Shown: positions 26,227 through 28,854 of the stretch, one piece after another
Numbering within the stretch: position 1 is the first letter of the stretch
Layout of the letters: every line of letters begins with the position of its first letter
Assembly (NCBI RefSeq): GCF_007846085.1
Contig: NZ_VOEJ01000006.1
Coordinates: 62,001 to 126,000, forward strand
DNA from: Mucilaginibacter pallidiroseus
Lineage (GTDB): Bacteria; Bacteroidota; Bacteroidia; Sphingobacteriales; Sphingobacteriaceae
Direction of reading: 5' to 3'
DNA: 64,000 nucleotides
The notes under the pieces: generated by a model
Database searches by the model: none
What the model was told of the DNA's origin: nothing
Seen by the model: the letters and a program-made list of their open reading frames with translations, nothing else
Program-made: the position numbers and the translations under genes

Positions 26227-26712
26227 TTAGTTACCCGCGCGGATGCTGCGTTCGCTTAGTTGCTTAAACAACTCATCGGTAAACTGGCGCTCGCTTTTGT
26301 AAAGTTCGCTTACCTTTTCGGCAGGAAGAATTTTTAAAAACTCATCGCGGTAATGTTTACGAATGTTAACCATCTGGTTATCGTATTCAATTTCCTTGTC
26401 AATTTGCTCGGTACCATTAGCCTGGGCACTTGAGTTATTAAGGCGCTTTAAAATACGTACAGCGGTAAGTTCCTGCTGATACTTGCGGTAAACGGGCCAA
26501 AAACGGGCCGATTCCGAATCGGTAAGATTTAATTGCTGGCCGATAAATCTTTCATGTGCAGCCTCCAGTTTAGGGTTGCGGGATGCACTCCTGAACCTCG
26601 CAGCCGGAGCATTACGCGGGCGCAGGTTATTTGCCTGCGCGTTAGCATCCTCGTTGCCCCAGGTTAGTACAACTACAAACAAAAAAATATATCTGAATAA
26701 GCTATTCATCAA
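26227..26712 (-). CDS. Exported Spy/CpxP-like small helical protein of the ECF sigma module
   Basis: A 161-residue protein with a signal peptide ('MMNSLFRYIFLFVVVLTWG', cleaved near 'ANAQ'). The mature part is helical and charged with 'RFIGQQLNLTDSESARFWPVYRKYQQEL', close to the LTxxQ-type helices of Spy/CpxP and to proteins annotated as sensors of ECF sigma factors. It is the third gene of a run with the sigma factor and the repeat-bearing membrane protein (10-bp gap). It probably senses envelope stress or acts as a periplasmic chaperone; this is inferred. Confidence 0.75.
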   Translation of the reverse strand: MMNSLFRYIFLFVVVLTWGNEDANAQANNLRPRNAPAARFRSASRNPKLEAAHERFIGQQLNLTDSESARFWPVYRKYQQELTAVRILKRLNNSSAQANGTEQIDKEIEYDNQMVNIRKHYRDEFLKILPAEKVSELYKSERQFTDELFKQLSERSIRAGN

Positions 26713-26722
26713 AAAGTATCAA

Positions 26723-27724
26723 TTAAAAATCAACATAGTCCTGGATGTCGGCATCAAGGGCCTGTGTATTTATTTGTTTTGCATCAACCATCTCGCGTGC
26801 GTCGCCGGCGTCAACATGTAGTTCCAAATAATCTTTTATCTCATCAACCGGCACATCAGACAGTTGGGTATGCAGCATTGTTTTATTGTGCTGAACGACA
26901 ACCGGTGCAGTTACAGGTTTAAAAAACACCGCGAAGCCTACAATCAGTGCAAGGCAGGCAGCAGTAGCATACTTAAAAGCATCTAACGCGAACAATTTGC
27001 GGGTAGTAAGCTTACGTACAACAGCTTGCTGCGCTACAGTTTTGTTTAGTATTGCTGCATTAAGCTTGTCAAAGTAACCGGCAGGTACATCAAAGGCATT
27101 CACCTTTTCCTGATCGTTCAATAATTCGTCAACCGCAATTTTAGCGGTGATCTGCTCACTAAGGTTTTCGAAGTATCCTTGCGGAACACCGAAAGATGCT
27201 TCTTCAGAAGGAGCCGCCTCCTCAATATTTATACGGCTTTGTATGTTTGCAGATAAGTTTTCAAAGTAACCATCCGGCACATTAAATGCATCTTCACCTG
27301 AAATTTGTTCCCCGATGTTTATACGGCTTTGAATATTATCTGACAGGCTCTCGAAGTAACCGTTCGGCACACCAAAATTTTCTTCGGTTGCCGGTGCCTG
27401 CTCTTCAATGTTTATGCGGCTTTGTATCTTGTCTGTAAGTTCGGCAAAGTAACCTTTAGGTACGGTAAATACATCAGCGTTTGCAAATTCAATATTAACC
27501 CGGCTTTGAATGTTGGCGGTAAGGCCTTCAAAATAATCGTCGGCAACGGTAAACCCTGCCCCGGGTGTTGCATCTTTTAACTCACTTAACTTTATTGTAT
27601 AAATAATACGCTGCCCGGCATCTTCAAAATAACCAGACGGCACTGTAAACGGGTTCTCCTTCGTAAACCGTTTAAGTGACATTTCTTCGTCTGCCCACTC
27701 GTTGTTGTCCATTTCGCTTTTCAT
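26723..27724 (-). CDS. Membrane protein with seven F-x-V-P-x-G-Y-F-E repeats, probable anti-sigma partner
   Basis: A 333-residue protein. Seven copies of the 9-residue motif start at residues 26, 58, 86, 117, 147, 178 and 211, spaced 28-33 apart. Copies 2-5 are followed by 'IQSRxNI' and acidic linkers. One membrane helix follows at about 251-268 ('YATAACLALIVGFAVFF'), then a periplasmic tail. Bacteroidota proteins encoded after ECF sigma factors often carry one such motif; seven copies are exceptional. The N-terminal cytoplasmic repeats probably bind sigma factor or another partner. It lies 56 bp after the sigma gene and 10 bp before the Spy-like gene. Confidence 0.8.
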   Translation of the reverse strand: MKSEMDNNEWADEEMSLKRFTKENPFTVPSGYFEDAGQRIIYTIKLSELKDATPGAGFTVADDYFEGLTANIQSRVNIEFANADVFTVPKGYFAELTDKIQSRINIEEQAPATEENFGVPNGYFESLSDNIQSRINIGEQISGEDAFNVPDGYFENLSANIQSRINIEEAAPSEEASFGVPQGYFENLSEQITAKIAVDELLNDQEKVNAFDVPAGYFDKLNAAILNKTVAQQAVVRKLTTRKLFALDAFKYATAACLALIVGFAVFFKPVTAPVVVQHNKTMLHTQLSDVPVDEIKDYLELHVDAGDAREMVDAKQINTQALDADIQDYVDF

Positions 27725-28392: not shown

Positions 28393-28854
28393 CTACGCCA
28401 ACAGATCAAGCACCTGCTGTGACGAATTTTTGGTGTCAACCTTTTCAATCACTTTATCAATTATGCCATCGCCGTTTATGATAAAAGTGGTGCGGGCGGT
28501 ACCCATATACTTTTTGCCGTACATGTTTTTTTCTACCCAAACGCCATAGGCCTCAACAATGCTGTGCTCGGTGTCGGCTATTAATGTAAATGGTAACTGG
28601 TACTTGCTCTCAAACTTCTTGTGCGATTTTTCATCATCAACGCTTACACCGATCACTTCAAATCCCTGGCTCAAAAGCGACTGATAGTTATCCCTAAAAT
28701 CGCATGATTCGGCCGTACAACCCGGTGTGTCATCCTTCGGATAAAAATAAAGGATCACTTTTTTCCCTTTATAGTCTGATAACGAAACGGGCTGGCCGTT
28801 TTGGTCGTTAGCGGTAAAATCTGGTGCTTTGTCGCCCTGGCTTAATTTTGGCAT
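28393..28854 (-). CDS. bcp: Thioredoxin-dependent thiol peroxidase (Bcp-type peroxiredoxin)
   Basis: A 153-residue peroxiredoxin. 'YFYPKDDTPGCTAESCDFRD' carries the peroxidatic Cys (in 'PGCTAE') and the second Cys five residues on, as in atypical two-Cys Bcp/PrxQ proteins; 'RTTFIIN' is the conserved downstream Arg region. It reduces hydrogen peroxide and organic hydroperoxides with thioredoxin. It follows the M23 peptidase with a 5-bp gap, so it belongs to the FAH/M23/bcp run. Confidence 0.95.
   Translation of the reverse strand: MPKLSQGDKAPDFTANDQNGQPVSLSDYKGKKVILYFYPKDDTPGCTAESCDFRDNYQSLLSQGFEVIGVSVDDEKSHKKFESKYQLPFTLIADTEHSIVEAYGVWVEKNMYGKKYMGTARTTFIINGDGIIDKVIEKVDTKNSSQQVLDLLA

Follow-up and report, generated by a model that had tools for sequence, protein, structure and literature searches.

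A predicted membrane anti-sigma factor of Mucilaginibacter pallidiroseus with seven repeated units that most likely derive from helix 4 of the class I anti-sigma domain

The window analysed here, a stretch of 64,000 nucleotides of Mucilaginibacter pallidiroseus (contig NZ_VOEJ01000006.1, positions 62,001 to 126,000), contains a three-gene operon whose genes lie on one strand in the order extracytoplasmic function (ECF) sigma factor, predicted anti-sigma factor and Spy/CnrX-like gene (Table 1). The middle gene encodes the protein under study, which shows seven units of about 31 residues with the consensus FxVPxGYFxxLxxxIxsRI, all of them N-terminal to a single transmembrane helix. An earlier examination of the letters of this DNA (the sequence-only reading) had described the product as an anti-sigma-type protein with seven F-x-V-P-x-G-Y-F-E repeats. 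Seven copies were found with the relaxed motif F-x-V-x-x-x-Y-F, starting at residues 26, 58, 86, 117, 147, 178 and 211, but the exact string is present in only four of the seven and F-x-V-P-x-G-Y-F in six. The steps between motif starts (32, 28, 31, 30, 31 and 33 residues) agree with the spacing of 28-33 residues given by that reading, and the IQSRxNI sequence that it placed after four copies was located at residues 72, 100, 131 and 161. In 20,000 shuffles of the protein, the relaxed motif was found 0.004 times on average and never more than once; the seven-fold array is not due to chance. A search of the 4.25 Mb genome with the unit profile showed its top seven matches (E 9.5e-13 to 3.9e-6) all inside this gene; outside it, no further unit was found at E < 0.01. 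The next match (G000:C14:147039-147098, E 0.012) is weak and lies in a short frame that is interrupted by a stop codon.

The AlphaFold model of the array, of low confidence, shows a string of separate helices of 13-23 residues, one per unit. Neither a zf-HC2 nor another zinc-finger domain was matched by Pfam in the protein, and no three-helix bundle was seen in this low-confidence model, only the separate helices. Five residues of the membrane helix (Y252, A253, A255, A256 and C257) and two histidines of the tail (His279 and His285) are invariant in 35 sequences of the genus (window 26870-26971) and could form a cleavage or metal site.

Table 1. Genes of the operon and parts of the predicted anti-sigma factor, with positions in the window.
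Feature	Position	Strand	Remarks
ECF sigma factor gene, 184 aa	27781..28335	(-)	First gene of the operon; presumed partner; Pfam Sigma70_r2 3.7e-17, Sigma70_r4_2 1.8e-15
Membrane anti-sigma factor (predicted), 333 aa	26723..27724	(-)	Seven units resembling helix 4, then a single transmembrane helix and a C-terminal tail
Unit 1 core, aa 26-47	27584..27649	(-)	Class-specific first unit; positional orthologues throughout the genus
Unit 2 core, aa 58-79	27488..27553	(-)	Alanine in place of the motif proline
Unit 3 core, aa 86-107	27404..27469	(-)	
Unit 4 core, aa 117-138	27311..27376	(-)	
Unit 5 core, aa 147-168	27221..27286	(-)	Of the seven, closest to the single-unit profile
Unit 6 core, aa 178-199	27128..27193	(-)	Of the seven, closest to the profile of class I helix 4
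Unit 7 core, aa 211-232	27029..27094	(-)	Class-specific last unit, adjoins the membrane
Transmembrane helix, about aa 250-268 (model helix 248-267)	26921..26977	(-)	
C-terminal tail, about aa 269-333	26726..26920	(-)	Periplasmic side inferred
Spy/CnrX-like helical protein, third gene of the operon	26227..26712	(-)	Probably periplasmic; model pLDDT (predicted local distance difference test) 86.6

The operon is constant among the relatives listed. In 120 of 120 loci (L001-L120, L001 being the window gene itself), an ECF sigma gene is directly upstream and a Spy-like gene directly downstream, both co-directional, the frames being separated by -112 to 94 bases at one junction and by -77 to 36 at the other. 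It was the anti-sigma protein, not the operon context, that served to recruit these loci; the named loci are the best 80 of 144 relatives, and some species are present twice, from two collections, each of which holds one genome per species. In a draw of 247 genomes across the phylum, the unit profile matched 28 genomes, 26 of which have the operon. The other two matches, L152 and L153, belong to genomes outside the window's class and each show one unit-like stretch in a protein that we called ScpB-type from its sequence; the stretches fetched around them showed no ECF gene, and they were set aside as unrelated. The Spy-like profile matched 101 of the 247 genomes. When the middle gene was sought in 70 Spy-like loci, 67 showed a co-directional ECF gene followed by a middle gene, and three (L207, L210 and L226) were without a co-directional ECF gene.

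In many families the middle gene of these 67 loci encodes a single-unit protein; in more distant ones it encodes a protein of the class I type. The class I anti-sigma domain (ASDI), present in RseA, RsiW, ChrR and RskA, is found in many membrane-anchored proteins encoded near an ECF sigma gene, as is the window protein, whose gene and relatives adjoin one in all 120 listed loci. The ASDI consists of an N-terminal three-helix bundle that binds sigma4, often with an Hx3Cx2C zinc motif, and a fourth helix after a linker. According to a survey of these domains (PMC7406223), helix 4 docks on sigma2.1/2.2, and four crystal structures of an ECF sigma factor with an ASDI show this helix and the linker in contact with these regions at the binding place of the beta-prime clamp. 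The window protein shows no sign of the bundle or the zinc motif, and has seven helix-4-like units where the ASDI has one helix 4.

Several comparisons connect the unit with this helix. Among seven distant middle proteins tested, zf-HC2 passed the Pfam cutoff in five (L214, L211, L205, L222 and L221). The class I-type set aligned 16 of 20 far middle genes, seven of the 16 having been tested with Pfam and the rest classed by eye; L218, L223, L225 and L227 were excluded by eye, being without a clear bundle signature. The single-unit set took 22 of 24 candidates, L212 and L219 having been put with the unit type by eye and left out of the set. Searched against PDB, the profile of the 16 class I-type rows matched 3hug (4.7e-5), which we take to be RslA, ChrR (0.006), RsiW (0.013) and also DdvA, mostly over the bundle, with the ChrR match extending through the unit columns. 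An example of the segment between bundle and membrane, from L214, is VPEGYFGTILPRLRQRI. Comparison by hhalign of the class I-type profile with that of the 22 single-unit proteins, over unit and membrane region, gave 97.9% (E 4e-13), and with the membrane region removed 96.7-97.5% over 25 columns (E 4e-10 and 6e-12); these E-values are those of a single comparison, run after the likeness had been noticed. In 14 of the 16 class I-type proteins the best match of the unit profile is located 10-32 residues before the membrane helix, and in 13 of these 14 its score was equalled by at most 1.5% of shuffles.

A tree of 34 operon sigma factors, hand-picked and with long branches, was rooted on three paralogs of the window's own genome and RpoE, from which the operon sigmas split with a support of 93/90. 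The rows with unit-type partners group together (18 of 19 in a single clade, support 100/99), L139 standing apart, and the class I-type rows form a grade outside this clade. By these comparisons the unit is homologous to the pre-membrane segment, where helix 4 sits, of the class I-type proteins encoded in the same slot of the operon. The simplest history is one in which the bundle was lost, helix 4 survived and was then multiplied. The alignments make it most likely that the repeat represents helix 4 of the class I domain, the helix that docks on sigma2. The anti-sigma assignment of the sequence-only reading is supported by the adjacent ECF gene, the single membrane span and this homology.

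The unit was also compared with known sigma contacts. Residues 48-63 of Escherichia coli RseA align without gaps on positions 4-19 of the unit, with P48 on P4; searched with the unit profile itself, RseA gives its best match, although weak (0.6 bits), in the same register. The RseA residues shared as contacts by the four crystal structures in Table 2 of PMC7406223 (48, 51, 52, 55, 56, 58, 59, 60 and 63) correspond to unit positions 4, 7, 8, 11, 12, 14, 15, 16 and 19, and so include P4, Y7, F8, L11, I15 and I19. In each of three sets of units, the contact positions are the more conserved ones (P 0.02, 0.05 and 0.02). Covariation between sigma factor and unit was analysed in 213 of 227 loci, which include seven duplicates of the window (L121-L127); seven loci had no unit, four no Spy-like protein and three no sigma, and the 213 pairs comprise 176 distinct ones, about 70 effective. 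The 18 shared contact pairs were at a mean percentile of mutual information of 64.8, a value equalled by five of 176 slides along the sigma factor, against a null of 49.9 +/- 8.0, and the five contacts that also carry a published coupling reached a mean of 78.5, equalled by six slides. The covariation support for a sigma contact is weak and mixed, suggestive at most.

Several observations weigh against the derivation from helix 4 or the action on the adjacent sigma factor. The unit profile found no anti-sigma structure in PDB (best E 0.57), as did the profile of the family (35 rows) reach only E 0.7 at best. In two of the seven tested class I-type proteins (L213 and L203) zf-HC2 was not found, and in two of the 16 (L221 and L224) the unit was not found at the expected place. 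The far operon sigmas are 36-44% identical to the window sigma, little above the 33% of its nearest paralog. Registers shifted by 4 or 7 residues score equally or slightly better on the RseA contacts, so that the register is not fixed, as expected of any amphipathic helix; the score of the all-unit profile on RseA was matched by 30 of 2000 shuffles. Likewise, the unit slid by four residues covaries as strongly (66.7 vs 65.3), and among the top 50 pairs sigma2 is not over-represented (14% in 2.1, 14% in 2.2, 26% in the linker and 22% in sigma4). Finally, the array model is of low confidence (mean pLDDT 61, predicted template modelling score 0.20), which leaves room for folding on binding.

The copies of the window gene are old. 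The sequence-only reading held that the DNA of the middle copies was very similar and pointed to recent tandem growth, but the 66-nt cores of copies 2-5 are just 62-74% identical and the remaining pairs 39-57%, synonymous differences among copies 2-5 amount to 0.64 to over 1 per site, near or at saturation, and Tandem Repeats Finder (score 30) reported no array in the gene; recent tandem duplication in the window gene is therefore rejected. Such events did take place in relatives, where nearly identical interior cores in L003 (pair 3/5) and L014 (pair 5/6), both 98.5%, and L032 (pair 2/4), 94%, result from recent duplication or conversion.

The comparison of repeat number among species that the earlier reading had proposed, with constancy as a sign against its idea, shows that it is not constant. 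After removal of proteins at least 97% identical, 72 loci of the genus were reduced to 60. One near copy at this level is L045, a named M. endophyticus locus, which pairs with L006, from a genome classed in the window's genus. In the 60 members, the units per gene range between four and eight: four in 10 members, five in nine, six in 28, seven in 12 and eight in one. On a quick tree of the sigma and Spy-like proteins of these 60 members, in which 17 of 65 inner branches are weakly supported, at least 22 changes of copy number are needed; the starred 11-row clade holding the window gene shows counts of 5, 5, 5, 5, 5, 6, 6, 6, 7, 7 and 8. Variation of this kind is what a length-dependent threshold, as suggested by the sequence-only reading, requires. 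Among the matches listed, Pedobacter has three units in 12 of 12 named loci, Sphingobacterium four to seven in 18 and Mucilaginibacter four to seven in 33, and other lineages have one, two, three or more. The motif had been called usually single in Bacteroidota, which holds for many families, whose single-unit proteins are of about 106-160 residues, but not for the window's own family, with three or more units. One Chitinophagales metagenome-assembled genome (MAG) and two Bacteroidetes MAGs (L095, L119 and L104) encode longer proteins (434-477 residues) with 6-8 units, perhaps an independent expansion.

The copies are maintained as working elements, since the motif changes little while synonymous sites are near saturation. 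In pooled pairs of copies between the first and the last unit of a gene, nonsynonymous divergence (dN) is 0.058 at the seven motif positions, 0.367 in the rest of the core and 0.45 in the linker, with synonymous values of 1.7-2.6.

The whole is best explained by a membrane-anchored anti-sigma factor, built of repeated helix-4 units, that would act on the ECF sigma factor encoded just before it, a reading to which we give a probability of roughly 0.6. The seven cytoplasmic units would be copies of the fourth helix of the class I domain, each able, as in the known complexes, to dock on sigma regions 2.1/2.2 and cover the site of the RNA polymerase beta-prime clamp; synteny and homology both suggest that they bind sigma. 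The three-helix bundle, which holds sigma4 in class I factors, would have been lost in this lineage, and linkers would tie the multiplied copies together, giving a chain of individual helices at the membrane. Each copy may be a docking site of modest strength, with the array retaining sigma at the membrane through repeated rebinding, and the array could hold more than one sigma molecule. The earlier proposal of multiple docking sites is favoured by the apparent descent of the unit from a known sigma2-docking element and by the constraint on its motif. Envelope stress might be sensed by the tail together with the Spy/CnrX-like partner, leading to cleavage of the anchor and release of sigma; regulated proteolysis is a guess by analogy with class I factors. 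The site-2 protease family has one match in the genome, as in each of 14 control genomes. A more specific form of this reading, in which up to eight equal sigma2-docking helices hold several sigmas at once and copy number is an evolutionary dial for the threshold of the stress regulon, is tentative, its multi-sigma occupancy being the most daring part, and has less than an even chance.

Of the alternatives, the one that survives best is that two different units wrap a single sigma molecule in the manner of class II, one of them on sigma2 and another, for example the divergent first one, on sigma4, with the rest serving avidity or being redundant. The model for it is CnrY of Cupriavidus metallidurans, a short class II membrane anti-sigma factor without a bundle, accompanied by an ECF sigma factor and a partner with the CnrX fold, and so comparable to the window operon. 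The Cnr system is composed of three genes, and a CnrYXH-like gene set is present in the window. In CnrY two different helices bind sigma4 and sigma2, according to PMC7406223, whereas the window protein repeats one kind of helix. Such a wrap is consistent with the distinctness of the first and last units: both show residue preferences of their own, and for each of them the nearest foreign relative occupies the corresponding position in 60 of 60 genes, compared with 48 of 60 for the penultimate unit and turnover in the interior. Against it, single-unit proteins with little else before the membrane, such as L135 and L139, adjoin the same sigma and Spy-like genes, and the copies that most resemble the single-unit form are the interior and penultimate ones (scores against the single-unit profile 31.9 and 32.8), not the first (24.2) or the last (26.4; interior vs last P 4e-11). 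We consider the wrap unlikely.

Proteins of the Spy/CpxP/ZraP kind are periplasmic and have a helical fold of the chaperone or metal-binding type. For the product of the third gene, the Spy-like protein, no Pfam family matched above cutoff, and its helical model gave Foldseek matches that include CnrX, NccX and ZraP, none of them significant (E > 0.1 for CnrX and ZraP). CnrX is among the best structural matches, with Z 7.7 and a root mean square deviation of 5.5 over 100 residues, below the safe level for helical bundles. The structural lists were headed by a designed protein in the first and by two Bacteroides outer-membrane or sugar-binding proteins in the second, and the E values and Z scores of this protein fall in the range that is ambiguous for helical folds.

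That the units bind another partner (core RNA polymerase, another ECF sigma, a protease adaptor or a chaperone) seems improbable. Fourteen further ECF genes of the genome match the window sigma at E 1e-8 or better, and the strongest covariation is not concentrated in sigma2; set against this are the constancy of the operon and the homology of the unit to a helix-4 segment in the same slot. A close sigma paralog as a second target was sought in the genome and not found, the nearest other ECF factor being the one of 33% identity mentioned above. Least of all do we credit the idea that one or two units matter and the interior is a neutral spacer changing length by recombination: it would suit the frequent copy-number changes in the genus and the nearly identical interior copies of L003, L014 and L032, but the motif residues are kept between first and last units (dN 0.058 at a synonymous divergence of about 2.6) and the interior copies stay near the single-unit form.

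The preferred reading as a helix-4 array acting on the adjacent sigma factor can be placed beside other known systems. In Phocaeicola vulgatus, the cirY-cirZ-spy genes show the order of the window operon (ECF sigma, anti-sigma and co-transcribed spy), and both cirY and spy are raised when the anti-sigma gene is deleted (PMC13114119), a precedent for such an operon; section 28 of that paper mentions no repeats. The eukaryotic ASCIZ-LC8 pair, a case of multivalent partner binding, resembles the proposed array in its working only, the proteins being unrelated. As stated in the class I survey (PMC7406223), only 6% of Bacteroidetes ECF sigma genes have a nearby class I anti-sigma gene, against 32% over all phyla, for which broken synteny or other anti-sigma classes were suggested as causes; domains shorter than 50 residues were excluded there. 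The unit, of about 25 residues, is below this limit and is a candidate for part of the Bacteroidetes gap.

Anti-sigma factors, their helix 4 and ECF-Spy operons are already known; one that consists solely of helix-4 repeats is apparently new for an anti-sigma factor within the papers listed by the searches, judged by title and start of abstract, where no description of a repeated anti-sigma helix was found, the ECF re-classification (doi 10.1093/nar/gkaa1229) lying outside that scope. The protein suggests that helix 4 alone may suffice for an anti-sigma factor, and its relatives provide a natural series of one to eight copies for studying the effect that the number of docking sites has on a switch.

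Two minor observations concern the annotation of the locus. Pfam reported Synapsin_N (PF10581) in the window protein with 33.5 bits against a cutoff of 27, but the best stretch covers 10 residues (148-157; positions 16-25 of a profile of 29), and the match is taken as a chance resemblance; it lies inside unit 5 (window 27254-27283) and is a likely source of false annotation in relatives too. A peroxiredoxin (bcp-like) gene is found just upstream of the sigma gene and on the same (-) strand (window 28393-28854), and a homologue is present in the fetched stretch of 32 of the 33 named Mucilaginibacter loci among the matches listed.
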